Assembly (NCBI RefSeq): GCF_020297055.1
Contig: NZ_JAIXCQ010000007.1
Location: forward strand, 124,001-188,000
DNA from: Isoptericola luteus
Lineage (GTDB): Bacteria; Actinomycetota; Actinomycetes; Actinomycetales; Cellulomonadaceae
DNA: 64,000 nt
Reading direction: 5' to 3'
In this document: positions 3,316 to 16,966 of the stretch, in pieces
Layout: every line of letters begins with the position of its first letter
How positions within the stretch are numbered: position 1 is the first letter of the stretch
Made by a program: the position numbers and the translations under genes
The notes under the pieces: generated by a model
Told to the model about the DNA's origin: nothing
What the model saw: the letters and a program-made list of their open reading frames with translations, nothing else
Databases searched by the model: none

Positions 3316-5703
3316 ATGGCCGAGGACCACGAGACGATCACGGCGCGCGAGCTGCCGGCGTTCCGGCGCGCCGTCGTCACCGGCGGGGCGGGATTCGTCG
3401 GCAGCCACGTGTGCGACGCGCTGCTCGCAGCGGGCACCGCGGTGGTGTGCGTGGACGACCTGTCGACGGGAGCCGCGCAGAACGTCGCGCACCTGCGGGG
3501 CGACCCGCGGTTCGTGGCCGTCGACGCCGACATCACCCTGGGTACGGCGGGGGTGCCGCGCGACGGCGTGGACCTGGTGCTGCACCTGGCCTCCCCGGCG
3601 TCCCCGACGGACTACCTGCGCCGCCCCGTGGAGACCCTCGACGTCGGGTCGGTCGGCACGCGCCACGCCCTCGAGCTGGCGGGGGAGTGCCGGGCCCGCT
3701 TCGTCCTCGCCTCGACGTCCGAGGTGTACGGAGACCCGGAGGTGCACCCGCAGCGCGAGGACTACTGGGGCCACGTCAACCCCGTCGGCCCGCGCAGCGT
3801 CTACGACGAGGCGAAGCGGTTCGGCGAGGCCCTGACCACCGCGTTCCGTGGCGACCGCGGCGTCGACGCGGGCATCGTGCGGATCTTCAACACCTACGGG
3901 CCGCGGATGCGCGGGCACGACGGCCGGATGATCCCGACGTTCGTGCGTCAGGCGCTCGCCGGCGAGCCCCTGACGGTCGCGGGCGACGGCTCCCAGACCC
4001 GCTCCGTGTGCTACGTGGACGACCTCGTCGAAGGACTCCTGGCGTTCGCCGCCAGCGGGCACCCGGGGCCGATGAACCTCGGCAACCCGGAAGAGCTCAC
4101 CGTGCTCGAGGTGGCACGGGCGGTGCTGGCCGAGACCGGCTCGAGCGCCGGGATCGAGCACGTCGAGCTGCCCCAGGACGACCCGCAGCGCCGCCGCCCG
4201 GACACGTCGCTCGCGGAGTCGGCGCTCGGCTGGCGCGCGCGCACCCCGTGGCGCGAGGGGCTCGCGCGGACCGTGCGCTGGTTCCGGGAGCGGGCCGCGG
4301 AGCCCGAGGCGGCCGCGGGGACCGACCCGGGCCCCGGCGCCCCGCCGCCCGCGCCGACGCCGCCCGCCGCGCTGCGCGTCTCCGTGCTCGGCTGCGGCTA
4401 CCTCGGTGCCGTCCACGCGGCGGCGCTGGCCCGCCTCGGCCACGACGTCGTGGGGGTGGACGTCGACGCCGACCGGGTCGCCGCCCTCTCGGCGGGCCGG
4501 GCGCCGTTCTACGAGCCCGACCTGGCGCCGTCGCTGGCCGAGGGTCTGTCCGCCGGCCGGCTGCGCTTCACCACCGACCCTGCCGGGGCGGCGGGGTGCG
4601 ACGTCCACTTCCTGTGCGTCGGCACGCCCCAGCGGCCGGGCAGCGGGGAGGCCGACCTGCGTCACCTCGACGAGGCGGTCGCGGCCCTCGAGCCGGTGCT
4701 GCGGCCCGGTGACGTCGTCGCCGGCAAGTCCACCGTGCCCGTGGGGACGGCCGCGCGGATCGCGGACCGGCTCGGTCCGGCCGGCGCGCGGCTCGTGTGG
4801 AACCCCGAGTTCCTGCGCGAGGGCCATGCCGTGGCGGACACGCTGCGCCCCGACCGCCTCGTCTACGGCGTGGCCCCCGGCGCGGCCGGTGCGGACGCCG
4901 CGGCCCGCCTCGACGAGGTCTACGGCCCGCTGCTCGCGGCGGGCGTGCCCCGCGTCGTCACCGACCGAGCGACGGCGGAGCTGGCGAAGGTCGCCGCGAA
5001 CGGGTTCCTCGCCACCAAGATCTCGTTCATGAACGCGATGGCCGAGGTCTGCGAGGCGTCCGGCGCGGACGCGGTGGAGCTGGCGGGGACGATGGCGCAC
5101 GACCCGCGCATCGGCGGCGCCTACCTCCGCCCCGGCCTCGGCTTCGGCGGCGGCTGCCTGCCCAAGGACATCCGGGCGTGCGTCGCACGGGCGCGGGAGC
5201 TGGACGTCGGGCCGGCGACCGTCTTCCTCGAGGAGGTCGACGCGATCAACCAGCGCGCGACCGGTCACGCGGCGCGGCTGGTCCGCGACGCGTGCGACGG
5301 CGATATCGTCGGCGCCCGCGTCGTCGTGCTGGGGGCGGCGTTCAAGCCCGGCTCCGACGACGTCCGCGAGTCGCCGTCCCTCGCCCTCGCGGAGCGGCTG
5401 GCCGACGCCGGGGCGCAGGTCGTGGTGACCGACCCGCAGGCGCTCGCGCTCGCGCAGGCGAGCCATCCGCGGCTCGGCTACCAGGCCGACGTCGAGGACG
5501 CCGTGCGCGGCGCCGACGTCATGGTGCTGGCGACGGAGTGGGACGAGTACCGGCGACTGGACCCGGTGGCGACCGGGGCGCTCGTGCACCGGCGGCACGT
5601 GGTCGACGCCCGCCACGCCCTGGACCACCAGGCCTGGCGGGAGGCGGGCTGGTCGGTGCACGCGCTGGGCAGGGCCCCGCAGGCCGTCCGCAGGACCGCC
5701 TGA
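3316..5703 (+). CDS. UDP-glucuronate decarboxylase-like SDR fused to UDP-glucose 6-dehydrogenase
   Basis: 795 residues with two complete enzymes. Residues 18-325 are an extended SDR with the NAD loop TGGAGFVGS (22-30), STSEVYGDP (133-141), YDEAK catalytic Tyr/Lys (163-167), RIFNTYGPRM and YVDDLVEG, closest in pattern to UDP-xylose synthase. A Pro/Ala-rich linker spans 327-352. Residues 353-790 are a UDP-glucose/GDP-mannose dehydrogenase: GCGYLGAVHA nucleotide loop (359-368), NPEFLREG (496-503), GGGCLPKD with catalytic Cys614, and FKPGSDDVRESP. One chain could convert UDP-glucose to UDP-glucuronate and then UDP-xylose. The alternative is a 4-epimerase N-half. The gene stands alone, converging on the heptose cluster, and may supply sugar to it. 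Confidence 0.88.
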   Translation: MAEDHETITARELPAFRRAVVTGGAGFVGSHVCDALLAAGTAVVCVDDLSTGAAQNVAHLRGDPRFVAVDADITLGTAGVPRDGVDLVLHLASPASPTDYLRRPVETLDVGSVGTRHALELAGECRARFVLASTSEVYGDPEVHPQREDYWGHVNPVGPRSVYDEAKRFGEALTTAFRGDRGVDAGIVRIFNTYGPRMRGHDGRMIPTFVRQALAGEPLTVAGDGSQTRSVCYVDDLVEGLLAFAASGHPGPMNLGNPEELTVLEVARAVLAETGSSAGIEHVELPQDDPQRRRPDTSLAESALGWRARTPWREGLARTVRWFRERAAEPEAAAGTDPGPGAPPPAPTPPAALRVSVLGCGYLGAVHAAALARLGHDVVGVDVDADRVAALSAGRAPFYEPDLAPSLAEGLSAGRLRFTTDPAGAAGCDVHFLCVGTPQRPGSGEADLRHLDEAVAALEPVLRPGDVVAGKSTVPVGTAARIADRLGPAGARLVWNPEFLREGHAVADTLRPDRLVYGVAPGAAGADAAARLDEVYGPLLAAGVPRVVTDRATAELAKVAANGFLATKISFMNAMAEVCEASGADAVELAGTMAHDPRIGGAYLRPGLGFGGGCLPKDIRACVARARELDVGPATVFLEEVDAINQRATGHAARLVRDACDGDIVGARVVVLGAAFKPGSDDVRESPSLALAERLADAGAQVVVTDPQALALAQASHPRLGYQADVEDAVRGADVMVLATEWDEYRRLDPVATGALVHRRHVVDARHALDHQAWREAGWSVHALGRAPQAVRRTA

Positions 5704-5727
5704 CCGGCGCCGGGCCGCGCGTCAGAC

Positions 5728-5742
5728 CCGGCCCTGGGCCGG
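5728..5742. terminator. Short GC-rich hairpin between convergent genes
   Basis: ccggccc/gggccgg inverted repeat around a single T, lying between the stop of the fusion dehydrogenase (5703) and the stop of the opposing SnoaL-like gene (5755). No T-tract follows, as is common in this GC range. Weak candidate for a bidirectional terminator. Confidence 0.35.
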
Positions 5743-5754
5743 TTCGGCCCTGGC

Positions 5755-6177
5755 TCAGATCTCCGGCGTCGGCCCGGGCTCGGCCTCGCGGCCGAAGGCG
5801 TCCGGCCCGCTCGCGGTGTAGGGGAGCCCCGGCCAGTAGGCCCACTCCTCGAACTCCGTCACGCGGCCGTCGTCGGCGAACTCCAGCACCCACAGGTCCT
5901 TGTACTCCTGCGCCTCGGGCGCCGTGTACTGCACGCCCACGCGCACGACGGCGCGGCGGCCCTCGACGGCGACGGGCTCGGCCGTCATGGAGAACGTCGC
6001 GCCCTCGTCGGCCGCCCAGAACTCGCCGATCTCCTCGTGCCCGAGCAACGCAGGGGTGTACGGCGAGCGGGCGTAGCTCGCGTCCTCGCTGAACAGGCGG
6101 CGGACGGCGGCGGCGTCGTTCTCGCGCCAGGCGCGCTCGTACCCGGCCACCCAGGTCATCACGTCGTCGCGGTCCAT
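5755..6177 (-). CDS. SnoaL/NTF2-like protein
   Basis: 140 residues with the cone-shaped SnoaL/NTF2 pattern: N-terminal helices (VMTWVAGYERAWRENDAAAVRRLFSEDASYARSPY), GHEEIGEFW, then beta strands (VAVEGRRAVVRVGVQYT, LWVLEFADDGRVTEFEEWAYWPG). Such domains serve as small isomerases or hydrolases or simply as ligand-binding folds, so no reaction can be given. The ATG overlaps the GT9 stop by one base (TGATG), making this the last gene of the nine-gene heptose operon. Whether it acts on the glycan or only shares transcription is unknown. Confidence 0.7.
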   Translation of the reverse strand: MDRDDVMTWVAGYERAWRENDAAAVRRLFSEDASYARSPYTPALLGHEEIGEFWAADEGATFSMTAEPVAVEGRRAVVRVGVQYTAPEAQEYKDLWVLEFADDGRVTEFEEWAYWPGLPYTASGPDAFGREAEPGPTPEI

Positions 6178-7235
6178 CAGGTCTCCTCCGTCTTGTCCGT
6201 GCCCGCCTCCCGGTCGAGCAGCGCGCCGGCGGCGGCCACCACCTCCTCGACGGTGATCCGCCGCAGGGCGGGGTCCGGCGCGTCGCCGTGCGGGTCGCCG
6301 CGGTAGCCGCCGTCCGACCGGGCGAGGTCGTCGTCCTCACCGTGCCACAGGACGGTGTGCCGCGCGGGGTCGACGGCGGGGCCCCAGAGCCGCGGCGGTG
6401 TGGGCCCGCACAGCACGACCGAGGGCGTGCCGTACGCGGTGGCGAGGTGCGCCACCCCCGTGTCGCCGCACACGACCAGGCGCGCGGTGGCCACCAGGTC
6501 CGCCAGGGCGGCGAGGTCCAGCGTCCCGGCCGCGTCGGTCACCGTCCCGGGGCCGGGCCCACGGCCCGTGCGTGCTGCCGCGGCGACCGCCTCGCACGTG
6601 GCCGCCTCGCCGGTGCCGCCCGTGACGACGACGTCGTGCCCGGCGTCCGCCAGGTGGCGCACCACGGCCGCGAACCGCTCGGGCGGCCACCTGCGGGACC
6701 CCGACGCGGCGCCGGGGTGCACCACGAGGTGCGTCCCGCGCGGGGCGGGGGCCTCGAGCCGCAGGTCCTCCCGCGCGCACGCACCACCGGCGTCGGTGAC
6801 GAGCCGGCACCAGCGGTCCACCTCGTGCTCGTCCTCGCTCCACGGCGGGCCCTGGACGCCCGCCTCCGGGGAGGCGAAGGCGACGAGCCGCTCGGGGGCG
6901 CCGGCGAGCAGCACGCGGTGGCTCCGGGGGCCGCGCCCGTGGAGGTTCACGGCGACGTGCCCGGGCGGGGGGCCGCCCGTGACGGTCGCGGCCTCCTGCG
7001 TCCAGCGCAGCGGCGCGAGACCCTCCGCGGGCACGACGCCGTCCACCAGGCCGAGGCCGCGCAGCCACTCGCCCGGTGGCCGCGGCGCGGCCAGCAGCAC
7101 GCGCCGGCGGGGCCAGGCCCGGCGGACCCCGCGCAGCGCGGGGACCGCGGTGAGGGCGTCGCCGAGGCCGAGGGCCCGTAGGACGAGGACCACGCCCTCG
7201 TCCTGGCCCTCCGCCATGGAGGGCAGGTCGCTCAC
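6177..7235 (-). CDS. Family 9 glycosyltransferase (heptosyltransferase-like) 1
   Basis: 352 residues. The N-lobe opens with VVLVLRALGLGDALTAVPALRGVRRAWP, the LPS-heptosyltransferase-like segment with the GLGD turn. The C-lobe has HLVVHPGAASGSRRWPPERFAAVV and the donor-site pattern VVCGDTGVAHLATAYGTPSVVL. This is the GT9 (WaaC/WaaF/WaaQ) fold, whose classical donor is ADP-heptose, and ADP-heptose synthesis enzymes lie immediately upstream. Start chosen at the GTG whose GTGA overlaps the SDR stop; an ATG six codons later is the alternative. Likely cytosolic or membrane-associated. Confidence 0.85.
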   Translation of the reverse strand: MSDLPSMAEGQDEGVVLVLRALGLGDALTAVPALRGVRRAWPRRRVLLAAPRPPGEWLRGLGLVDGVVPAEGLAPLRWTQEAATVTGGPPPGHVAVNLHGRGPRSHRVLLAGAPERLVAFASPEAGVQGPPWSEDEHEVDRWCRLVTDAGGACAREDLRLEAPAPRGTHLVVHPGAASGSRRWPPERFAAVVRHLADAGHDVVVTGGTGEAATCEAVAAAARTGRGPGPGTVTDAAGTLDLAALADLVATARLVVCGDTGVAHLATAYGTPSVVLCGPTPPRLWGPAVDPARHTVLWHGEDDDLARSDGGYRGDPHGDAPDPALRRITVEEVVAAAGALLDREAGTDKTEET

Positions 7236-8002
7236 GGCCACGACGCCTCGCCCGAGGCCATGACGAGCATCTCGCGGACCTCGAAGCCGACGGGCTGGCG
7301 CAGCGCCGTCACGACCGCAGCGGCGGTGCTGCGGGGGTCGGCCAGGTCGGCGTCGGGGCCGGGCTTGTACTGCTCGGGGCGACCGTCGAAGAACGGGGTG
7401 CGCATGCCGCCCGAGACGAGGCACGTCACGCCCACCTGGCCCGCCAGCTCGGCCGCGAGCGCCTGCGTGAACCCGCGTACGGCGAACTTCGAGGCGCAGT
7501 ACGCCGTCGCGTCCGACACCCCCTTGAGGCCGAGGGTCGACGCGACGGTCACCACGGTGCCGCGCCGCTCGGTCAGGAAGGGCAGCGCGGCGCGCACGAC
7601 GGCGACGGTGCCCAGGAGGTTGACCCGCACCACCTGCTCCCAGTCGTCGGTGGAGATCTCGTCGAGCCGCCCGCACGCGTCGGTGCCGGCCGCGGTGACG
7701 ACCGCGTCGGGCGGCCCCACCTCCACGGCGAGCCGTTGCACGGCGGCCGCGGCGGCGGCGGAGTCGGCGAGGTCGACGACGGCGTGGGGGGTGCCGCCGG
7801 CCGGCGGGACCCGGTCCAGGACGACCGGCTTGCCGCCGGCGTCCAGGACGGCGTCGACGAGCGCCGCCCCGAGGCCGCTCGAGCCGCCGGTGACGTAGAC
7901 GGTGCCGAGCTCGCGCGGTACGGGCGTTCCGGGTGCTGACGTGGTGCTCGGGGTGCTCGGGGTGCTCGGGGTGCTCGGGGTGCTCGGGGTGCTGCTGGTC
8001 AT
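7232..8002 (-). CDS. Short-chain dehydrogenase/reductase
   Basis: 256 residues, classical SDR: TVYVTGGSSGLGAALV (cofactor loop TGxxxGxG, residues about 35-43), VTAAGTD in the NNAG position, VASTLGLKG, YCASKFAVRG (catalytic YxxxK) and SGGMRTPFF. The ATG is well placed after GAAGGAGG and overlaps the preceding stop (ATGA). Residues 5-20 are a serine/threonine/proline repeat (STP)n encoded by a 9-bp tandem array, outside the fold. It may modify the sugar moiety of the cluster product, but the substrate cannot be read from the sequence. Confidence 0.85.
   Translation of the reverse strand: MTSSTPSTPSTPSTPSTPSTTSAPGTPVPRELGTVYVTGGSSGLGAALVDAVLDAGGKPVVLDRVPPAGGTPHAVVDLADSAAAAAAVQRLAVEVGPPDAVVTAAGTDACGRLDEISTDDWEQVVRVNLLGTVAVVRAALPFLTERRGTVVTVASTLGLKGVSDATAYCASKFAVRGFTQALAAELAGQVGVTCLVSGGMRTPFFDGRPEQYKPGPDADLADPRSTAAAVVTALRQPVGFEVREMLVMASGEASWP
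7944..7988. repeat. 9-bp coding tandem repeat (STP)n
   Basis: Five contiguous copies of gtgctcggg (on the + strand) encode the Ser-Thr-Pro repeats near the N-terminus of the SDR on the minus strand. Copy-number change would lengthen or shorten the disordered N-terminus without a frameshift. Confidence 0.9.
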
Positions 8003-10098
8003 GATCGGTCCTCCTTCGATGCCGGGACGGTGGTCTGAGGACGGCCGCCGGAGGCGGCGACGGCGGGCCCGCCGGCGCGCCGCAGGATCGAGGTCGTCGA
8101 GCGGCCCTCGACGTACGGCAGCACGACGACCCGGCCGCCGTGGCGCCGCACGACCTCCGCCTCCGGGAGGTCGGCCTCGCCGTAGTCGCCGCCCTTGACC
8201 CACACGCCGGGTCGCAGCGACTCCAGGGCGGTGCGCGGGTCGTCCTCGTCGAAGACGACGACCTCCGACACGCAGTCGAGGGCAGTCAGCACCCGGGCCC
8301 GGTCGTCCTGGCCGACGACGGGTCGCTCGGGGCCCTTGAGCCGGCGCACCGAGGCGTCGGAGTTGAGCAGGACGACGAGGTGGTCGCCGAGCCGTGCCGC
8401 CGCCTCGAGCGTGGCGACGTGCCCCGCGTGCAGCAGGTCGAAGCACCCGCCGGTGGCCACGACGGTGCCGCCGGAGGCACCGAGCCGGGCGACGACGTCG
8501 GCGAGGTGGTGAGACGGTCCGGTGGCGGGCGCGGCGGCGGGCAGGGGTGCGTCCACCGCCCGCCTGCGGTACGCGTCGGCGCCGCCGGCCGCGACCCAGG
8601 CCGAGGCGGTCGCCACCGCGCCCGGCACGGCGTCCCGCACGGTGCCGCCGTCGACGAGCCGGCACGCCAGCGCGGAGGCGAACCGGTCGCCGGCCCCGCA
8701 CGGGTCGCCCGCCGCGGGATCGGCGGGGACGAAGGTCACCTGGCCGGTCGACCGGGCCAGGTACGCGCCGGTGGCGCCGACGGTGACGCAGACCTCGCCG
8801 ACCTGCCAGGCGTGCGCCAGGTGTTGGGCGAGGGCGCCGGGGTCGTCGCCGCCGGCCGGCAGGCCGAGCGCCTCGGCGGCGGCGACCGCCTCGGCGAGGT
8901 TGGGGGTCACGACCGTGGTCCCGGGCACGGGCGGGCCGCCGCGCGGGTGGGGGTCCCACACGACGACGTGGTCCCGGGCCGCCTCGGTGAGCGCGTCGCG
9001 CACCACTGGGTCGTGGGTGGTGCCCGCGCCGTAGTCCGAGACGAGCACGACGTCCGCCGCGGCGAGCGCCGCCCGCACGTCGTCGCCGGGCACGTCCACC
9101 GGGGCGGCGGGGCCGCCGTCGTCGACGCGCACGATGGTCTGCCCCGCGGAGCGGACGCGGGTCTTGCGACGCGTGGTGCCGTCCTGTGGCAGGGCGACGA
9201 CGCGGACCCGCTCGTCGAGCGCGCGCCGCAGCGCGGCGGCGTCCTGGTCGCGGCCGAACGGCGCCACGAGGACGACGCGCGCGGCGTCGGCGGCGAGCAG
9301 CGCGGTCAGGCCCGCCCCGCCCGGGCTGTGCCGCACGCCCAGGGTGTCGACCACCGGCACCGGCCCGTCGGGGGAGAAGCGGGTGACCTGGCCGTCGACG
9401 TCCCGGTCCAGCACGACGTCGCCGACGACCGCGACGAGCGGCCGGTCGTCGGGCTCGTCGGCCGGCTCCTGACCCTGGACGCGGCGGACGTGCGCGTCGA
9501 CGGCCGCGCAGAGCGCGTGCACCGCGACGAGGTGCAGCTCCTGGACGGCCGACGTCGAAGATCCCTGCACGGCCAGGACGTCGTCGCAGAGGTCGGCGAG
9601 CGTGCACGGTCCGGGACCGGTGAGCGCCCACGTGGTGACGCCGAGCTCGCGCGCCTCCCGGGCCGCCGCCGTGACGTTCGGGCTCTCGCCGGAGGTGGAC
9701 AGCAGCAGCAGGACGTCGCCGGGTCGGCCGTGCGCGGCCACCTGGCGGGCGAACATCTCCTGCACGCCGTAGTCGTTCGCGATTGCCGTGAGGCTCGACG
9801 TCTCCGCGTGCAGGGCGATGGCGGACAGGGGGAGGCGTTCGCCCTCGAACCGGCCCACCAGCTCGGCGGTGAGGTGCTGGGCCTCGGCGGCGCTGCCGCC
9901 GTTGCCGGCCACCAGCAGCCGCCCGCCCGCGAGGGCCGTCTCGGCGAGCCGGCGTCCCCAGCCGGCCAACCGCTGGGCGTCCCCGCCGAGCATGTCCAGC
10001 CCGGTGCGCAGGTCGTGCGCGTGCGCCCGCAGGCCCCGGGCGAGGTCGTCGGTGCCGCCGGTGGTGGCGGCGCCGTCGTCGGACCAGGTGCCGCTCAT
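7999..10098 (-). CDS. gmhA/hldE: GmhA-HldE fusion: heptose isomerase, heptose-phosphate kinase and adenylyltransferase
   Basis: 699 residues with three catalytic modules. Residues 20-205 are a SIS-type sedoheptulose-7-phosphate isomerase (GNGGSA 65-70, SLTAIANDYG, STSGES 134-139, QELHLVAVHALC). Residues 221-510 are a PfkB/HldE kinase (GDVVLDRD, SPDGPVPVV, and DPCGAGDRF with GAGD at 468-471). Residues 548-675 are a nucleotidyltransferase (GCFDLLHAGH 551-560 with the HxGH site, LKGPERPVVG, KGGDY 635-639, RSTTSIL). Known HldE kinase makes heptose-1,7-bisphosphate and the last domain makes ADP-heptose after GmhB dephosphorylation. The GmhB step is encoded three genes upstream. ATGA overlaps on both sides; the ATG start is fixed by the upstream overlap. 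Confidence 0.92.
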   Translation of the reverse strand: MSGTWSDDGAATTGGTDDLARGLRAHAHDLRTGLDMLGGDAQRLAGWGRRLAETALAGGRLLVAGNGGSAAEAQHLTAELVGRFEGERLPLSAIALHAETSSLTAIANDYGVQEMFARQVAAHGRPGDVLLLLSTSGESPNVTAAAREARELGVTTWALTGPGPCTLADLCDDVLAVQGSSTSAVQELHLVAVHALCAAVDAHVRRVQGQEPADEPDDRPLVAVVGDVVLDRDVDGQVTRFSPDGPVPVVDTLGVRHSPGGAGLTALLAADAARVVLVAPFGRDQDAAALRRALDERVRVVALPQDGTTRRKTRVRSAGQTIVRVDDGGPAAPVDVPGDDVRAALAAADVVLVSDYGAGTTHDPVVRDALTEAARDHVVVWDPHPRGGPPVPGTTVVTPNLAEAVAAAEALGLPAGGDDPGALAQHLAHAWQVGEVCVTVGATGAYLARSTGQVTFVPADPAAGDPCGAGDRFASALACRLVDGGTVRDAVPGAVATASAWVAAGGADAYRRRAVDAPLPAAAPATGPSHHLADVVARLGASGGTVVATGGCFDLLHAGHVATLEAAARLGDHLVVLLNSDASVRRLKGPERPVVGQDDRARVLTALDCVSEVVVFDEDDPRTALESLRPGVWVKGGDYGEADLPEAEVVRRHGGRVVVLPYVEGRSTTSILRRAGGPAVAASGGRPQTTVPASKEDRS

Positions 10099-11375
10099 CG
10101 GTCGTTCACCGCCCGGACGGTGTCGAGCCCGGCGGCCCCGGCGCCGAGCCCGGTGGTCGCGCCGTCGTGCTCGGCGAGCACGCCCCGGTACGCCGCGGCG
10201 GTGCGCGCGGCGACGCTCGACCAGTCGTAGAGCCGCTCGGCGCGGACCCGGGCCGTGGCACCCAGGCGCTCGCCGAGCGCGGGGTCGTCCTGCAGGCGAC
10301 GCAGGGCCGCCGCGAGCGCCGCGGGGTCGCGCGGCGGCACGAGCAGGCCCGTGCGCCCGTCCACCACGGAGTCGAGCAGGCCGCCCACGGCCGAGCCGAC
10401 CACCGGCCTGCCGCACGCCGCTGCCTCGAGCGGCACGATGCCGAAGGGCTCGTACCAGGGCGTGCAGACGACGACGTCGGCGGCGTGCATGAGGTCCTGC
10501 ACGTCGTCCTGGTCCACCCCGCCGCGCAGGTGGACCCGGTCCGCCACCCCGAACCGGTCCGCGGCCGCCATCAGACGCCGGGCCTCCGGGTCGCCGCCCA
10601 GGTCGGCGGCTCGCGGACCCCCGACCACCTCGAGCGTCGTCCCCGGAAGCGCCACGAGCGCCTCGACGACGGTCTCGACACCCTTGCGCTCGACGAGCCG
10701 GCCCACCGAGAGCAGCCGCAGGGGGGCGCCCGGCACCCGTGCGGGGCGTCGCGGGCCGGCGGGACGGAAACGACCGACGTCCACGCCGCACGGCACCACC
10801 TCCACGCGCTCCGGCGCGGCGCCGAGGGCCACGAGCTCGGCCACCTCGTCCTGGCACGTGGCGACGATCCGGTCGACGGCGCGGCACAGCAGCCGCTCGC
10901 GTGCCACCCGCTCGGGCGGGCTGGTGTCCTGGGCTCCCTGGTGGCGTCGCTTCACGGACCCGAGCGCGTGGAAGGTCTGCACCAGCGGGATGCCGAGGGG
11001 CGGCCCGGACTGCAGGCCCGCGATCCCCGACATCCAGAAGTGGGCGTGCACCACGTCCGGCACCGGGTCCGTGGGCGCCCCGCCGGACCACCGGCGCCGC
11101 AGGTCCGTCCCGAAGGCGCCCATGAACGGCAGCAGGTCGTCCTTCGGCAGCGGCCTGGGCGGCCCGGCGTCGACGTGCACCACCTCGACGCCCTCGGCGA
11201 GAGGCACCCGCTCCGGCAGGTCCGGGTCGTCGCGCCGGGTGTACACCTGCACGGCGTGCCCGTGGGCGCCGAGGCGGGCGGCCAGCGACGCCACGTGCAC
11301 GTTCTGGCCACCGGCGTCCGGCCCGCCGAGAGCGGCGAGCGGGCTGGCGTGCTCGGAGATCATCGCGATCTTCAT
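10095..11375 (-). CDS. Family 4 glycosyltransferase
   Basis: 426 residues, GT-B fold. It starts MKIAMISEHASPLAALGGPDAGGQNVHVASLA, the glycine-rich acceptor loop seen in MshA- and sucrose-phosphate-synthase-like enzymes. VVHAHFWMSG and VQTFHALG follow. The C-lobe has LSVGRLVERKGVETVVEAL and the retaining GT4 EX7E region PWYEPFGIVPLEAAACGRPVV. ATGA overlaps join it to the genes on both sides. A nucleotide-sugar donor is expected, and its identity is not deducible. Its role is probably addition of a further sugar to the heptose-containing glycan. Confidence 0.85.
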   Translation of the reverse strand: MKIAMISEHASPLAALGGPDAGGQNVHVASLAARLGAHGHAVQVYTRRDDPDLPERVPLAEGVEVVHVDAGPPRPLPKDDLLPFMGAFGTDLRRRWSGGAPTDPVPDVVHAHFWMSGIAGLQSGPPLGIPLVQTFHALGSVKRRHQGAQDTSPPERVARERLLCRAVDRIVATCQDEVAELVALGAAPERVEVVPCGVDVGRFRPAGPRRPARVPGAPLRLLSVGRLVERKGVETVVEALVALPGTTLEVVGGPRAADLGGDPEARRLMAAADRFGVADRVHLRGGVDQDDVQDLMHAADVVVCTPWYEPFGIVPLEAAACGRPVVGSAVGGLLDSVVDGRTGLLVPPRDPAALAAALRRLQDDPALGERLGATARVRAERLYDWSSVAARTAAAYRGVLAEHDGATTGLGAGAAGLDTVRAVNDR

Positions 11376-12367
11376 GAGGTCACCTCCGTCAGGATCGCGT
11401 CCCAGCGGCGAAGGAACGCGGTGTGCGAGTAGTGCTCCAGGACGTGGGCGCGGGCCGCGTCGCCGTGCGCGCGCGCCTCGTCGGGGTCGTCGAGCCACCG
11501 GCGCGCGGTGGCGACCAGGTCGTCGGGCCGCGCGCTGAGCAGGCCGGCCTCGGGCGGCACCGCCACGGGCGCCTCCGTGGTGGGCAGGGCCAGCACCGGC
11601 ATGCCGAGGGCCATCGCCTCCAGCAGCGAGAGCCCGAGGCTGGTCCAGCGGAAGGGGTGCAGGTAGGCGCGCGACGCCGCGAGCTCGCGGTGCATGGCGT
11701 GCTGCGGGACGTCGTCGTGCAGCCCGTGGGCCGGCCCACGGGCGGGGGCGGCCAGGTGCTCGGCGAGCTTGCCGACGCCCATCCCGTAGACGTCGAGCGG
11801 GACGTGCCGGCCGACCTCGACGAGCACGTCCGTGCCGGCCACGCGCCAGCGGCGCACGGGCTCGTTGACGACCGCGCCGACGCTGCGCCGTCCCCCGGTC
11901 CACAGGTGGCCCGGGTCGGGGACGCCGTGCCGCGCGACGAGGGTGCGCGCGTGGCCCGTGTCCCACATGAGGGCGTTGAACTCGGTGACGTGCACGATCG
12001 GGACGCGGCCCTCCTCGACGACGTCGACGTCCGCCATCGGGTGCCGCGTCGAGGCGGCGTGCCCGGTGGGGGCGTTGTGCTCCACGTACACGGCGGGCAC
12101 GTCCCGGCCGGCGACGAGCCCCGTCCAGCGGCGCAGCAGGTCCGCCTCGTGGGGGCGCTGCAGGACGACGACGTCGATCCCGCCGGCCGCCAGCGCCGCG
12201 AGCCCGGAGGGCGTGGCCTCGCGGACCGTCTCCGGCCAGTCCCAGGTGTCCGCCCGCCCGCGGCCGTCCGGCCCGCGGTCGGGCACCACGGGGACGATGT
12301 ACTCGTGGTCGCCGGCCACGAAGGCCGTGGCCCACGAGCCGTGCACGTGCCAGATCAGCACCCTCAC
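11372..12367 (-). CDS. Glycosyltransferase (GT4/GT1-like, divergent)
   Basis: 331 residues. It opens VRVLIWHVHGSWATAFVAGDHEYIVPVV, a GT-B N-lobe with a HVHG loop. The middle contains VVLQRPHEADLLRRW and VYVEHNAPTG. The C-terminal lobe has ASRAYLHPFRWTSLGLSLLEAMALGMPVLALP, the degenerate EX7E-type donor site. GTG start is fixed by the GTGA overlap with the upstream GT9 gene. The short N-lobe makes it a divergent transferase, and neither donor nor acceptor can be assigned. It is embedded in the heptose operon between a GT9 and a GT4. Confidence 0.75.
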   Translation of the reverse strand: MRVLIWHVHGSWATAFVAGDHEYIVPVVPDRGPDGRGRADTWDWPETVREATPSGLAALAAGGIDVVVLQRPHEADLLRRWTGLVAGRDVPAVYVEHNAPTGHAASTRHPMADVDVVEEGRVPIVHVTEFNALMWDTGHARTLVARHGVPDPGHLWTGGRRSVGAVVNEPVRRWRVAGTDVLVEVGRHVPLDVYGMGVGKLAEHLAAPARGPAHGLHDDVPQHAMHRELAASRAYLHPFRWTSLGLSLLEAMALGMPVLALPTTEAPVAVPPEAGLLSARPDDLVATARRWLDDPDEARAHGDAARAHVLEHYSHTAFLRRWDAILTEVTS

Positions 12368-13443
12368 GCGACCACCGCCCGTGCCCCAGGGGTCGTGCGA
12401 GGCGTGCCCTCCCGCGTCCCGGCCCCGTCCGCGAGCCGTGCCACGGCGTCGGCGACGTGCTCGGCCGGGACGCCCGACAGGCACGTGTGGCCCGGCACGG
12501 GACACTCGCGCGCCCGCGTGCCGCGGCACGGGGCGTCCTGGTCGCCCAGCACCACCACCGGCACGCCCCAGGGAGCCCACCGCTCCAGCGGCACGACGGG
12601 CGCGAACAGGGAGACGACCGGCGTGCCGACCGCGGCGGCCAGGTGGGCGGGCCCGGTGTTCCCGGCCACGACGCAGCGGGCACCGGCCAGCACCGCGGCG
12701 AGCCGGCGCAGGTCCGTGCGCCCGGACAGGTCGGTGGCCCCGCCACCGGCGACGAGCTCGCCCAGCGCGGTCTCCTGCGGGCCGCCCGTCACCACCACGC
12801 GGTGCCCACGGCCGGCGAGGGCCGCGACGACGGCCCGGGCGTCCTCGGGCCCCGGAGCGCGCGCGGGCACGGAGGCCCCGGGGTGCACGACGACGTACGG
12901 CTCGGCGGGCACCAGGGCGCGCACGTCGGGCAGGGGGCCCCGGACGGCCAGCCGTCCGTCGTCGCCGGCCGGGGGGCCGAACCCCGCGGCGCGGGCCAGG
13001 GCGAGCGCCGCCTCGACCTCGTGGAGGCCCTCGGGGCGGTGGTGCCGCACGTCGAGCAGCGACCCGGGATAGTCCTCGCTCGTCGCGGCCACGCGCCCGA
13101 CGCCCGCCGTGCGCAGCAGCAGCGCGGTGGGCAGCGAGCTCTGGTGGAACGACGTGAAGACGACCGCGGTGGCGTACCGGCGGGCGGCGACCGTCTCGAC
13201 GAGCCGGCGCAGCGCGGCGGGGTCGACGGCCGGGGGACGATACCCCGACCACGGCGCGTCGAACGTCAGCACGTCGCGCACGCCGGGCAGCAGGCGGGCG
13301 GCCGCGGCCCCGGCGGGCGACGCCAGCACGTCGACCTGCCCGCCGCGGGCCGCGGCGCCGTGCGCCAGGGCCCGGACCGCCGGCCCGGTGAGCAGGACGT
13401 CGCCGTCGGCGTCGAGGCGCACGGCGAGCACGTCGGCGCTCAC
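12364..13443 (-). CDS. Family 9 glycosyltransferase (heptosyltransferase-like) 2
   Basis: 359 residues. N-lobe VLAVRLDADGDVLLTGPAVRALA carries the R-x-D-x-x-G-D-x-x-L-T-x-P signature of GT9. C-lobe carries PYVVVHPGASVPARAPGPEDARAVV, VVVTGGPQE and CVVAGNTGPAHLAAAVGTPVVSLF, the ADP-heptose binding region of WaaF-like enzymes. Near the C-terminus, CRGTRARECPVPGHTC is a Cys cluster also found in some heptosyltransferases. GTG start overlaps the stop of the GT2-GmhB gene (GTGA). As a likely early heptosyltransferase of the cluster, it pairs with the second GT9 at 6177. Confidence 0.87.
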   Translation of the reverse strand: MSADVLAVRLDADGDVLLTGPAVRALAHGAAARGGQVDVLASPAGAAAARLLPGVRDVLTFDAPWSGYRPPAVDPAALRRLVETVAARRYATAVVFTSFHQSSLPTALLLRTAGVGRVAATSEDYPGSLLDVRHHRPEGLHEVEAALALARAAGFGPPAGDDGRLAVRGPLPDVRALVPAEPYVVVHPGASVPARAPGPEDARAVVAALAGRGHRVVVTGGPQETALGELVAGGGATDLSGRTDLRRLAAVLAGARCVVAGNTGPAHLAAAVGTPVVSLFAPVVPLERWAPWGVPVVVLGDQDAPCRGTRARECPVPGHTCLSGVPAEHVADAVARLADGAGTREGTPRTTPGARAVVA

Positions 13444-15050
13444 CGTGCCGCTCCGCCGGTCGCGTCCGCGGGTGCTGCCAGCCGGTCCTTGAGTGCCTCG
13501 ACGGCGGCGGCGAGGTCCGCGGCGACGAGCGGGGCCGCGGCCACCTCCTGCGGCCGGGTGGCCGGCGTCGGCACGAGCACGGGCGTGGCCCCGGCGGCGA
13601 GCGCCGCGCCCACGTCCGCACCGATGTCACCGATCACCGCGCACCGGTACGGCGGGACGCCGAGGTCTGCCGCGGCGGCGAGCACCAGTCCGGGCCCGGG
13701 CTTGCGGCACGTGCACCCGTGCCCGGGGGTGTGCGGGCACACCTGCCACGTCTCGAAGGCTCCGAGGAAATCCGAGACGCGGGCGTGGACGGTGTCCACC
13801 TGCGCGCGGGTGAGCAGGCCCCGCCCGATGCCGGACTGGTTCGTCACGACGCCGAGACGCACCCCGCGGGCACGGAGGCCGTCGAGCGCCTCGCGCGCGC
13901 CCGGCAGCGGTCGTACGGCCTCCGGGTCCGCGTTGTACGGCTCGTCGTGGACGAGGGTGCCGTCGCGGTCGAGCAGCACGACGTCCAGAGCCGGTGGCCA
14001 CGGCCCGGCAGGCGTCGCGCCGGTCCGCACCGCCACCTCGCCCGCCGCGCGGTGCGCCACGGCGGCGAACGGGATCGCGACGCTGGTCCACGCCATGCGG
14101 CGCAGCTCGGCGGCGAAGACGTCGTCGCCGGGCCGCGGGCCGGGCACCGTGCGCCGGCGCAGCAGGTCGAGCGTGAGCCCGCCCCACGCCGCAGCCCCGG
14201 CCGCGGCCCACCGAGGGCGCCCGGCGAGGGCCCCGGTCACCGCGACGCCCGCGGCCGCCACCGTGCCGACGTGCCGCGCCAGCAGGCCGCGGCCGGTGCG
14301 GGCACGGTCCCGCCATCGCGGGCCGTGCAGGGCGCGCATCAGGGCGTCGTCACGGTTGCCCCGCTGGGCCCGCAGGCTCGCCCCGTCGGCGGCGGGACGC
14401 ACCGGGTGCACCGTCGTCCGGGTGCCGCGCTCCAGCCCCCAGCCGGCCTCCCGCACCCGCAGGGCGAGGTCGGCGTCCTCCCGGTAGGCGCGAGGGAAGC
14501 GCTCGTCGAACCCCGCGACCTCCTCGAGCGCCGCCCGGCGGTACGCCATGTCGGCCGTGGCCCAGGCGGCCCCCTGCAGGCCTGCCGTCCCGCGCTCCCA
14601 GTCGGTGGGCCGGCGCACGGCGGGCAGCGGGACCAGGAGCCGGCCCTGGGTCCCCCCGGTCCGAGGACTGGCGGCGGCGAGGTCCGCGACGAGCTGCCGC
14701 GCCCACCCGGCGGGCAGCTCCACGTCGTCGTCGAGGAAGACCACCCACGGAGCCGACGTCGAGCGCCATCCCGCGTTGCGGGCGGCGGCCGGCCCCCGGC
14801 CGGCGGTGCGCACGACGCGGGCACGCAGCCGGCCTCCCGCGGGTCCCAGGTCGAGCGGCGGGTCGGCCACGTCCCAGCGGCCACGGGCCACGGGACGGTC
14901 GTCGGCCACCACCACCTCGGCCGGACGGTGCGCCGCCGGCAGCCCTCCGGTCGCCCCGTCGAGGGTCTCGAGCAGGCGCACCAGCGACGGACGTCCCACC
15001 GTGGGCACCACGACGGCGTACCGGGGCTCGGCCGCGTCCGGCACCGTCAT
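13440..15050 (-). CDS. GT2 glycosyltransferase fused to GmhB-like heptose bisphosphate phosphatase
   Basis: 536 residues. Residues 9-240 are a family 2 transferase (VVVPTVGRPSL, GPAAARNAGW, FLDDDVELP with the DDD metal site at 107-109, YREDADLALRVREAG). Residues 250-345 are Ala-rich with one or two hydrophobic stretches. Residues 354-520 are a HAD-IIIA phosphatase (DRDGT 361-365, VTNQSGIGRG 402-411, zinc loop CPHTPGHGCTCRKP 438-451, GDIGAD 484-489), the GmhB signature. GmhB removes the 7-phosphate of heptose-1,7-bisphosphate, the step between the two HldE reactions. Start ATG overlaps the carbamoyltransferase stop (ATGA). Histidinol-phosphatase activity is the alternative, but the locus favours heptose. 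Confidence 0.9.
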   Translation of the reverse strand: MTVPDAAEPRYAVVVPTVGRPSLVRLLETLDGATGGLPAAHRPAEVVVADDRPVARGRWDVADPPLDLGPAGGRLRARVVRTAGRGPAAARNAGWRSTSAPWVVFLDDDVELPAGWARQLVADLAAASPRTGGTQGRLLVPLPAVRRPTDWERGTAGLQGAAWATADMAYRRAALEEVAGFDERFPRAYREDADLALRVREAGWGLERGTRTTVHPVRPAADGASLRAQRGNRDDALMRALHGPRWRDRARTGRGLLARHVGTVAAAGVAVTGALAGRPRWAAAGAAAWGGLTLDLLRRRTVPGPRPGDDVFAAELRRMAWTSVAIPFAAVAHRAAGEVAVRTGATPAGPWPPALDVVLLDRDGTLVHDEPYNADPEAVRPLPGAREALDGLRARGVRLGVVTNQSGIGRGLLTRAQVDTVHARVSDFLGAFETWQVCPHTPGHGCTCRKPGPGLVLAAAADLGVPPYRCAVIGDIGADVGAALAAGATPVLVPTPATRPQEVAAAPLVAADLAAAVEALKDRLAAPADATGGAAR

Positions 15051-16696
15051 GGCGTCACCTCCGCGTACAGGTCCGCCCGGCGCACCAGGTGAGGGCCGAG
15101 CACCAGCGCGTCCACGGGAGCGGAACCGAAGAGCTCGAGGGCGTCGCGCGGGTCGTCGACCATGGGGCGCCCGGCCGTGTTGAGGCTGGTGTTCACCACG
15201 ACGGGCAGCCCGGTCCGGGCCTTGAACGCCCGGATCATGGCCTGCAGCCGCGGGTTCGAGTCGTCGACCGTCTGGATGCGCGCCGTGCCGTCCACGTGCA
15301 CCACGGCGGGGATCCGCTCACGCCACGACGGGGCGACGTCGTGCACGAACAGCATGTAGGGGCTCGGCACCGGGCCGCCGGAGAAGATCGTGGGCGCGTC
15401 CTCCAGCAGCACCATCGGCGCCACCGGGCGGAACTGCTCGCGGCCCTTGACGTCGTTGAGCCGCTCCACGTTGTCCGCGCGGCCGGGGTGCGCCAGCAGC
15501 GAGCGGTGGCCCAGCGCTCGCGGGCCGAACTCCGCGCGGCCGTCGAACCAGGCGACCACGCCGTCGTCCGCGAGGATCGCAGCGACCTCACCGGCGTGGT
15601 CGTCCGGCGTCGTGAAGGGCACGCGGGCCGCGCGCAGCGCCGCGGCGAGCTCGTCGGGGGACCAGGACCGGCCGAGCGCGGCGGACCCCATCGGCTCGAC
15701 CGTGTCCCCGCCCTCGGTGGCGATCTGCAGGGCCGCACCGAGCGCCGTGCCCGCGTCGCCCGCGGCGGGCTGCACCCACACCTCGTCGAACGGCGACTCC
15801 CGCCACACGCGCGAGTTGGCGACGCAGTTCAGCGCCGTCCCGCCCGCCATCGTCAGGGCCCCGTCGCCCGTCTGCCCGTGCAGCCAGGTGGCGAGGTCGA
15901 CGAGAACTTCCTCGAGCCGCGTCTGCACGGACGCGGCGAGGTCGGCGTGCGCGCCGCCCCAGGTGCCGTCGTCGGTACGGGGCGGGGCCCAGCGGCTCCA
16001 GTCCGGCGCCAGGGCGACGAACCCGCCGTCGTCGGTGGCGGCCAGCACCTCGCGCAGGTCGTCGAGGAACCGGGGCTCGCCGTACGACGCGAGCGCCATG
16101 ACCTTGTACTCGTCGCTCGAGCGGAGGAACCCCAGGTGCTCGGTGAGGGACTCGTACACGAGGCCGAGCGAGTGGGGCAGCTCCTGGCTCGCCAGCACCT
16201 CGAGCCGGCCGTGGTCGTAGCGCCCGGCGAGGTGCGACGAGCGCTCACCGCGCCCGTCCAGGGACAGGACGCTCGCCGTCGGGAAGGGGGAGGCCAGCGC
16301 CGCGGACGCCGCGTGCGCGATCTCGTGCGGCACGGACCGGACGACCGACCGGTCGAGCCCGGGCAGCGCCGTGGCGAGGAAGTCGGGGGCGCGCTCGGCG
16401 TACCGCACCCGCAGCCAGTCCCACGGGTCGGGCAGGCCCATCTCCTCGGCGGGCTTCGCCAGCGCGGGGTCGAACGAGTAGCCGACGGCGTCGAGGTCCT
16501 GCGGGCGCAGGCCGCCGGCCTCGAGGCACCAGGCCATGGCCTGCTCGGGGAGCTCCCAGGCCGCGAACGGGATGGGCCGCTTGCCGTGCTTGCGACGGGA
16601 GAACCGCTCCTCCTCGGCGGCGGCGACCACGCGGCCGTCGACGACCAGGGCGGCGGAAGGGTCGTGGAACAGGGCGTTGACGCCGAGGACACGCAT
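15047..16696 (-). CDS. NodU/CmcH-family O-carbamoyltransferase
   Basis: 549 residues, usual length for the family. VNALFHDPSAALVVDG (H11) begins the YrdC-like/Kae1-like N-domain, and the metal ligands HEIAH (124-128) follow. FLRSSDEYKVMALASYG, TMAGGTALNCVANSRV, DAGTALGAALQ and GRAEFGPRALGHRSLLA are family hallmarks. The reaction is transfer of a carbamoyl group from carbamoyl phosphate via carbamoyl-adenylate to a hydroxyl. ATG at 16696 follows GAGGAGGG with a 9-nt spacer. It is first in the nine-gene operon. Known relatives carbamoylate Nod factors, antibiotics and, in Pseudomonas, LPS heptose, so a heptose acceptor is a reasonable inference. Confidence 0.9.
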   Translation of the reverse strand: MRVLGVNALFHDPSAALVVDGRVVAAAEEERFSRRKHGKRPIPFAAWELPEQAMAWCLEAGGLRPQDLDAVGYSFDPALAKPAEEMGLPDPWDWLRVRYAERAPDFLATALPGLDRSVVRSVPHEIAHAASAALASPFPTASVLSLDGRGERSSHLAGRYDHGRLEVLASQELPHSLGLVYESLTEHLGFLRSSDEYKVMALASYGEPRFLDDLREVLAATDDGGFVALAPDWSRWAPPRTDDGTWGGAHADLAASVQTRLEEVLVDLATWLHGQTGDGALTMAGGTALNCVANSRVWRESPFDEVWVQPAAGDAGTALGAALQIATEGGDTVEPMGSAALGRSWSPDELAAALRAARVPFTTPDDHAGEVAAILADDGVVAWFDGRAEFGPRALGHRSLLAHPGRADNVERLNDVKGREQFRPVAPMVLLEDAPTIFSGGPVPSPYMLFVHDVAPSWRERIPAVVHVDGTARIQTVDDSNPRLQAMIRAFKARTGLPVVVNTSLNTAGRPMVDDPRDALELFGSAPVDALVLGPHLVRRADLYAEVTP

Positions 16697-16966
16697 CGCG
16701 ACGGTCCCTCCTCGCAAGGGCAGGGTCGAGCAGGCCAGGGATGGTCCTGCCGACCGGGCGGGCCGTCGCTGCTGCAACCCGGACCTTCACCGTCCACCCG
16801 AGAGCCGCTTCCTCGCAAGGGGATCGTGCCCCATAGGTAATTCTCTTGCTGTCAGCGGGCTCGACGCCGGGTCGCCCGCCCGCTCGTCCGCCCGCTCGCC
16901 CCCGACGACGCCGGGCGTCGTGCCGTGGCGCTGCGGGCATCAGGACCCGGTGCGACGGTGGGGCGC
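16697..16966. promoter_or_regulatory. Divergent intergenic leader with duplicated 12-mer
   Basis: This 270-bp region separates the heptose operon (-) from an SDR gene (+). The 12-mer tcctcgcaaggg occurs at 16709-16720 and again at 16810-16821; the first copy overlaps the Shine-Dalgarno of the carbamoyltransferase (minus strand reads cccttgcgagga). The second copy is preceded on the minus strand by a ggggcacgatcccc stem-loop. A locally AT-richer patch (ggtaattctcttg, near 16836-16848) is the likely promoter zone. No known riboswitch was recognised. Confidence 0.4.

Follow-up and report, generated by a model that had tools for sequence, protein, structure and literature searches.

What would a Gram-positive bacterium make with enzymes resembling those of the lipopolysaccharide (LPS) inner core? 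The question is raised by a 64,000-nucleotide stretch of the 3.97-Mb Isoptericola luteus genome (contig NZ_JAIXCQ010000007.1, positions 124,001 to 188,000; here called the window), in which nine minus-strand open reading frames (ORFs), spanning 5755-16696, are devoted largely to heptose, carbamoyl, and glycosyl transfer. An earlier reading, made from the sequence only, took them for a single nine-gene operon with eight stop/start overlaps, and both the coordinates and a base-by-base reading of the junctions agree: all eight stop and start codons overlap, four as ATGA, three as GTGA, and one as TGATG. Pfam and NCBIfam profiles give the gene order carbamoyltransferase (CarbT), glycosyltransferase GT2-GmhB, GT9 (GT9a), GT-B (GTB), GT4, GmhA-HldE, a short-chain dehydrogenase/reductase (SDR), a second GT9 (GT9b), and a SnoaL-like gene. 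The arrangement is not a chance one, because a search for conserved neighborhoods finds the same genes clustered in many other actinobacterial genomes.

The comparisons below indicate that this is a cwg-type operon, and that it would, with a probability of about 70%, combine nucleoside diphosphate (NDP)-heptose with a xylose/carbamoyl arm to build one conserved, short, envelope-associated glycan or glycolipid. The kind of operon is known; what would be new is the composition predicted for its product (heptose, xylose, and carbamoyl), the division of its genes into two modules, and a counterpart in Burkholderiales.

Relation to the Streptomyces cwg operon

In Streptomyces coelicolor, cwg is a 12-gene operon (sco6179-6190) and a partly σE-dependent target (PMC6767563). 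It has been published as a putative cell-wall glycan operon induced by vancomycin (Hong et al. 2002, as cited in PMC6767563 and PMC5839063). Annotations for cwgB-E and cwgG-J are given in the passages of PMC5839063 concerned with cwg. There, cwgH is a phosphoheptose isomerase and cwgI a bifunctional synthase/transferase, the eighth and ninth genes if counted from sco6179; a putative heptosyltransferase has also been named in print among the S. coelicolor cwg genes. These annotations fit the gene families of the window.

Two further loci (loci and genomes carry L and G numbers) link the window to cwg. On a Streptomyces plasmid (L134), 12 consecutive genes encode an NAD epimerase/UDP-xylose synthase (UXS), CarbT, GT, HAD, GT9, GT, GT, SIS, HldE, GT9, GT, and GT. 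Of these, the first ten have counterparts in the window, at 44-69% identity (CarbT 69%, gene 2; GT2 54%, gene 3; GmhB 57%, gene 4; GT9a 60%, gene 5; GTB 54%, gene 6; GT9b 45%, gene 10). L095 (G176) has the same first ten genes in the same order, followed by two GT2' genes, and thus all twelve types. About 178 bp ahead of the extrapolated start of its UXS gene, L095 also matches the cwg promoter known from print at 27 of 29 bases (maximum of 18 in 200 shuffles); the match in L134 reaches only 17/29. With functions assigned through L134, L095, and the published annotations, rather than through the S. coelicolor sequence, 10 of the 12 cwg gene types are present within 3316-16696 of the window. 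Types B to J stand in the same order, with the SDR gene inserted between I and J and with A (UXS) at the other end. As judged by gene order and by these ten gene types, compared through the two loci, the window operon is best read as a cwg-type operon.

The likeness extends over the same families, with CarbT to GT9b in the same order and with UXS, GmhA, and HldE included. The window differs in having three fusions (GmhA-HldE, GT2-GmhB, and UXS joined to UDP-glucose 6-dehydrogenase, UGD), in the position of UXS at the opposite end and on the opposite strand, and in the added SDR and SnoaL-like genes. In addition, the two GT2' (cwgK/L-type) genes have no match in the window, to which that search was confined, and no σE-type promoter was found there. 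The sequence-only reading had supposed that such a system was not described, which does not hold, since a cwg-type operon is already in print for S. coelicolor. As for the composition of the cwg glycan, no statement was found within titles, the beginnings of abstracts, and some passages, a body of text outside which most subscription papers lie, including Hong et al. 2002.

The cwgK/L-type GT2 family itself recurs near the operon elsewhere (for example in L040, L041, L042, L047, L079, L083, L095, and L134). It was seen in 19 loci in the count of neighbor families and in 29 with a Burkholderiales protein as the query, a few of these weakly and through the operon's own GT2.

Predicted synthesis of the heptose donor

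The fusion protein P0001 consists of a SIS/GmhA isomerase, a PfkB kinase, and a nucleotidyltransferase (HldE model, E 5e-77), and P0002 joins GT2 to a HAD-IIIA/GmhB domain (E 4.5e-33). Among aligned relatives, GmhA residues E79, H75, and Q186 are present in 58/58, H189 in 56/58, and H194 in 57/58; the HldE motifs GAGD and HxGH are present in 68/70 and 76/77, respectively. These are active-site positions of GmhA and HldE. In GmhB, the zinc loop is kept in 60 of 62 matches and DRDG[T/V] in 51. The catalytic motifs of all three enzymes are therefore largely conserved, which argues for the synthesis of an NDP-heptose donor. Thus the four activities leading from sedoheptulose-7-phosphate to NDP-heptose, claimed in the sequence-only reading, appear to be present by domain and motif, and a profile search of the ORFs recovers the GmhA, HldE, GmhB, GT9, and carbamoyltransferase families, with equivalog scores below the cut-offs.

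It is improbable that the isomerase/kinase/nucleotidyltransferase trio makes some other activated sugar and that the GT9 enzymes transfer no heptose. Such an interpretation can point to the scores just mentioned, and also to GT9a, in which N replaces the D of the WaaC DTG motif in 59/59 rows, a residue to which we presume a role in WaaC. It must also account for the near invariance of the GmhA positions, GAGD, and HxGH, for the retention of the GmhB motifs, and for the Burkholderiales clusters described below, which keep GmhB and GT9 with no match to GmhA/HldE, as expected if LPS synthesis supplies the precursor.

The nucleotide carried by the heptose may vary. The nucleotidyltransferase motif in the window is YVEGRSTT, with the STTR5 arginine; its first residue is Y, versus F or L in the source. 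Of 78 nucleotidyltransferase matches, 55 have a strict xxxGxSTT (48 of these with R at that position) and 23 depart from it. The arginine of the STTR5 motif is reported to permit the formation of CDP- and UDP-heptose (PMC11461863, a commentary on Tang et al. 2024). Because of this arginine, the donor need not be ADP-heptose only: ADP-heptose is the likely donor, and CDP- or UDP-heptose is possible. The earlier proposal of ADP-heptose therefore survives in part, favored by the NDP-heptose enzymes and the two GT9 genes but not necessarily for ADP alone. The fusion of isomerase, kinase, and nucleotidyltransferase is a listed subgroup of the NDP-heptose synthases of Tang et al. 2024, which the window also resembles in its STTR5 arginine; as presented in passages of the commentary, that work addressed immune activation, and no cwg-type glycan is mentioned in them (PMC11461863). 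In the 78-genome set, the whole GmhA-HldE fusion gives a single match only in G000, G010, and G037.

In the I. luteus genome, no HldD scores over the cut-off (best 91.3 versus 274.6 bits). With no HldD-type C6 epimerase at that level, the sugar is expected to stay in the D,D configuration, and the product is thus probably D,D-heptose. Nor does LpxC have a match in this genome at E 1. Both results agree with the absence of LPS assumed in the sequence-only reading. The precedent it drew from Pseudomonas also holds, as carbamoylation of LPS-core heptose has been assigned to WapO (PMC8005017). The window resembles the LPS inner-core pathway (GmhA, HldE, GmhB, HldD, WaaC/F, and, in Pseudomonas, WapO) in its donor enzyme families, its GT9 genes, and its carbamoyltransferase, and differs from it in lacking LpxC and an HldD over the cut-off and in having a xylose arm. 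The acceptor presumably cannot be lipid A bearing 3-deoxy-D-manno-octulosonic acid (Kdo). Despite the enzyme families in common, an LPS-type or GDP-heptose pathway is scarcely credible, given these two absences, a kinase of the PfkB type, and a nucleotidyltransferase of the HldE type.

The UDP-xylose side

The sequence-only reading overlooked a gene convergent with the operon, and with it the xylose side of the system. The UXS half of this gene is closest to structures of UDP-glucuronic acid decarboxylase 1 (4.6e-96 to 3.2e-95; next family, 6.5e-38), and the second half is a UDP-glucose 6-dehydrogenase. T134, E136, Y163, and K167, which we take to be catalytic residues of UXS, are present in 61/61 rows. 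Both the closest family and the kept residues point to a UDP-xylose synthase.

Most of the loci that have the full gene set have UXS next to the operon or close by. Within a sample of 78 genomes, I. luteus included, UXS is present in 20 of 23 genomes with a strong GmhA/HldE match and in 1 of 55 without (Fisher p 1.8e-14). Here G061, G065, and G076, which have weak nucleotidyltransferase matches only, were counted as lacking HldE, and a 50% UXS match in G027 was left uncounted; if it is counted, p becomes 1.9e-13. The lone genome with UXS and no HldE (G044) is a fragmented assembly that has an operon-type CarbT and a piece of GT9b adjoining UXS. In the class, UXS is present in 37 of 40 genomes, all chosen among the 101 with a GmhA/HldE match. 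When CarbT was sought in 16 genomes, matches of 66-85% were obtained in G044, G111, and G234, and of 40-42% in G118 and G146; the remaining 11 have none at E 1e-40.

Two modules

The relation between the heptose and xylose genes was examined in 66 loci, defined as having at least three of GT9a, GT4, GmhA, and the HldE nucleotidyltransferase over self-set identity thresholds, with the contig-cut L032 and L051 included. All three of UXS, CarbT, and GT2 are present in 47 of these loci and none of them in 13; the other 6 are mixed (L032, L034, L051, L075, L085, and L093). The gene set thus has a core, consisting of GmhB, GT9a, GTB, GT4, GmhA, HldE, and usually SDR and GT9b, and an arm, consisting of CarbT, GT2, and UXS. 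In a Saccharothrix locus (L033), the arm, together with GT9b and UGD, lies apart from the core and on the opposite strand.

Of the 394 genomes sampled in the class, 101 have a GmhA-HldE match at E 1e-40 or better (44 of 121 genera); at 1e-10, 26 of 78 relatives have one, I. luteus included. Within the genus, 4 of 17 other genomes match, so that the locus is patchy. Among the 10 loci listed, the nearest that have a name belong to Isoptericola sp. 4D.3 and Cellulosimicrobium sp. CUA-896, both at 76% identity in the best segment of GmhA-HldE.

Several loci depart from these arrangements. A second, more divergent HldE gene lies a few kb away in the core-only L048, L049, L066, L099, and L105. In L068 (G185), GmhA-HldE gives a single match, and no other gene of the operon is present in the 20 kb fetched. 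The Streptomyces plasmid pFRL5 (L064) carries a different cluster (GmhA-HldE, NAD epimerase, HAD phosphatase, GT9, carbamoyltransferase, P450, radical SAM, and serine hydroxymethyltransferase), whose product may be a heptose-containing natural product.

Transferases and tailoring enzymes

The two GT9 transferases (PF01075) and the carbamoyltransferase (PF02543/PF16861) named in the sequence-only reading are confirmed by profile. The nearest solved structure is heptosyltransferase I for GT9a (E 2.3e-8) and heptosyltransferase II for GT9b (E 4.9e-10). For CarbT it is 7xb6 (E 1.9e-87), followed by TobZ (2.5e-81). The AlphaFold models of GT2-GmhB and GTB have pLDDT (predicted local distance difference test) values of 93.6 and 91.9, respectively, and the former shows three C-terminal helices on GT2. 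Foldseek matches of GTB include BshA, PimB', TarM, and MshA; fold searches with GTB and GT2 returned general GT-B or GT-A matches only, with no substrate named. It is by linkage that GT2 is provisionally assigned to xylose. In the SDR, Y171, K175, and S158, presumably active-site residues, are present in 55/55 rows. The SnoaL-like gene was seen only in the window, L028, and L039 among the loci scanned.

GT4 offers a hint about the acceptor. Its nearest solved structures are Tll1590, a sucrose-phosphate synthase, and Corynebacterium glutamicum MshA. Two basic positions are K and R in 63/63 rows and align with what we take to be the phosphate contacts of MshA; two further acceptor positions are unlike MshA, one being F in 60 rows and Y in 3, the other A in 63. 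GT4 was considered as the MshA of this genome and rejected, since it scores 266 bits against a cut-off of 462.5, and another gene of the genome reaches 521.9. Because the phosphate-contact positions are kept, the other acceptor positions differ, and an MshA gene is located elsewhere, GT4 may use a phosphorylated acceptor other than that of MshA, which is a lead rather than a result.

A counterpart in Burkholderiales

CarbT homologues of about 46-48% identity occur on Burkholderiales replicons, within plasmid clusters of Paraburkholderia sprentiae (L135), Caballeronia zhejiangensis (L136), Burkholderia multivorans (L137), and Paraburkholderia sp. D15 (L138). A twelve-gene comparison was made first on L135 alone, and the other three were checked afterwards. 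All four hold eight homologues: GT4 (46-49%), UXS (49-51%), CarbT (46-48%), GmhB (36-41%), GT2 (34-38%), GT9a (35-38%), GTB (33-36%), and GT9b (33-38%). L137 also has an SDR at 37%. The clusters share these eight gene types with the actinobacterial operon and differ from it in two respects. First, GmhA/HldE has no match at E 1e-5 in any of the four, which is expected if, as seems reasonable, LPS enzymes encoded elsewhere supply the heptose precursor. Second, they carry a PIG-L deacetylase beside a cwgK/L-type GT2'; when the actinobacterial loci fetched were searched for the deacetylase, none gave a match (tblastn, E 1e-6). In print, S. coelicolor sco6178, which adjoins cwgA, is annotated as a putative deacetylase. 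The presence of such clusters in Gram-negative bacteria weakens the idea of a Gram-positive wall glycan and favors a glycan independent of wall type.

The predicted pathway and its product

In the proposed pathway, GmhA, HldE, and GmhB would convert sedoheptulose-7-phosphate to NDP-heptose, and the UGD-UXS fusion would make UDP-glucuronate and then UDP-xylose. Glycan synthesis may begin with the transfer of a sugar by the MshA-like GT4 to an acceptor that is phosphorylated or of the polyol type. Extension would fall to GTB and GT9a, with GT9a adding heptose; GT2 would add xylose or another UXS-dependent sugar, and GT9b a second heptose or a related sugar. CarbT would cap a hydroxyl, and the SDR may oxidize or reduce one sugar. 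The predicted outcome is a short glycan or glycolipid associated with the envelope and, in Streptomyces, induced by cell-wall stress.

A different end point, a soluble or secreted heptose/xylose glycoside that is a small metabolite rather than part of the wall or envelope, is unlikely but deserves a serious hearing. MshA and sucrose-phosphate synthase use small phosphorylated acceptors, and GT4 groups with both and keeps its K and R in every row. By eye, no export, polymerase, or anchoring families were recognized beside the operon. The same gene set is found in Gram-negative Burkholderiales, which have no wall type in common with actinobacteria, and heptose-containing natural products are known, septacidin being one (named in the commentary PMC11461863). 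The envelope, however, is indicated by the partial σE dependence and the vancomycin induction reported for S. coelicolor, and the three modeled C-terminal helices of GT2 suggest that this enzyme is possibly membrane-bound.

Several observations weigh against an envelope glycan built from both modules. The equivalog scores of the donor enzymes are below the NCBIfam curated cut-offs (rfaE_dom_II, 174 versus 181.5 bits; gmhA, 149.3 versus 209.45). The core-only loci have no xylose arm, and L034 has CarbT and GT2 with no UXS seen within 22 kb. In eight genomes (G098, G111, G118, G123, G134, G145, G146, and G234), UXS lies apart from the operon with no CarbT/GT2 match beside it, although the UXS match is just 52-55% in G146 and G234. 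Given these genomes and the core-only loci, UXS probably has other uses too. Among the neighbor families present in at least five loci, no flippase, polymerase, or wall-anchoring gene was recognized by eye. Finally, no σE-type promoter (AAC-N16-18-CGTC) lies upstream of CarbT in the window. Of 26 loci, 2 have such a promoter, and shuffled sequences give 1.2. As the promoter concerns regulation in S. coelicolor, and L134 has no close match either, we do not treat it as a defining feature of the gene set.

The envelope-associated glycan remains the favored product. A broader proposal is more tentative and falls somewhat short of an even chance: that one glycan pathway, using NDP-heptose, UDP-xylose, and carbamoyl groups and with an MshA-like start on a small phosphorylated acceptor, is common to Gram-positive actinobacteria, where it belongs to the wall-stress response, and to Gram-negative Burkholderiales, and that its product is an undescribed class of envelope or secreted glycan, neither LPS nor a teichoic-type wall polymer. 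The cwg operon is already recognized by name in the wall-stress response of actinobacteria, and the comparison of genes offers a concrete composition for its product and shows which genes form an optional arm. In addition, the number of genomes in the class with a GmhA-HldE match (101 of 394) implies that the capacity to make NDP-heptose, which is an innate-immune agonist, may be present in many actinobacteria.

Features of the locus and an upstream palindrome

The features of the locus are collected in the table. The start of GT9b is GTG 7235 given the overlap; GTG 7241 and ATG 7217 are alternatives.

Table. The operon and adjoining features in the window (coordinates count from the first nucleotide of the window).
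Feature	Coordinates	Strand	Domains or basis
UXS-UGD fusion (cwgA-like + UGD), convergent with the operon	3316..5703	+	UXS 3364-4293; UDP-glucose 6-dehydrogenase 4375-5625
SnoaL-like protein	5755..6177	-	PF12680
GT9b, second heptosyltransferase-like gene (cwgJ)	6177..7235	-	PF01075, E 1.8e-24
Classical SDR oxidoreductase, core neighbor	7232..8002	-	PF00106, E 6e-36
GmhA-HldE fusion (cwgH + cwgI)	7999..10098	-	Isomerase 9487-9957; PfkB kinase 8572-9438; nucleotidyltransferase 8074-8493
GT4, MshA/sucrose-phosphate-synthase-like transferase (cwgG)	10095..11375	-	Structure matches
GTB, GT-B fold glycosyltransferase (cwgF), GTG start	11372..12367	-	AlphaFold and Foldseek
GT9a, heptosyltransferase-like (cwgE)	12364..13443	-	PF01075, E 6.4e-26
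GT2-GmhB fusion (cwgC + cwgD)	13440..15050	-	GT2 14016-15050; heptose-bisphosphate phosphatase 13485-13982
CarbT, NodU/TobZ-type O-carbamoyltransferase (cwgB-like), first gene of the operon	15047..16696	-	PF02543/PF16861
Degenerate copy (8/10) of palindrome GAAGCGCTTC, candidate operator	16802..16811	-	Found upstream of the operon in relatives

Conservation ahead of CarbT takes the form of a clear block only in the window, L028, L034, and L039. Of 149 upstream regions, 32 have the palindrome GAAGCGCTTC, often as GAGAAGCGCTTCTC, at 9/10 or better, whereas dinucleotide shuffles give 0.8. The number of independent sites is lower, because some divergent pairs have a single site between them. In nine genomes, chosen partly for carrying the palindrome, the exact 12-mer occurs 11 times, including 7 at the operon, and a reversed-pattern control is found in 6 places. 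The sole exact 12-mer in the I. luteus genome lies elsewhere than the degenerate copy in the window. Upstream of the operon in L034, L039, L054, L084, L096, L103, and L107, GAGAAGCGCTTCTC resembles a LacI operator by eye and is a candidate operator.

Divergent from the operon, an NAD-epimerase-type protein is encoded at 16967-18547; in L028 and several of the core-only loci, homologues are found next to the operon. Two other families, judged by eye to be aldehyde-dehydrogenase-like (15 loci) and sigma-factor-like (11 loci), recur near the operon in L033, L034, L038, L041, L042, L047, L069-L072, L076, L084, and others.

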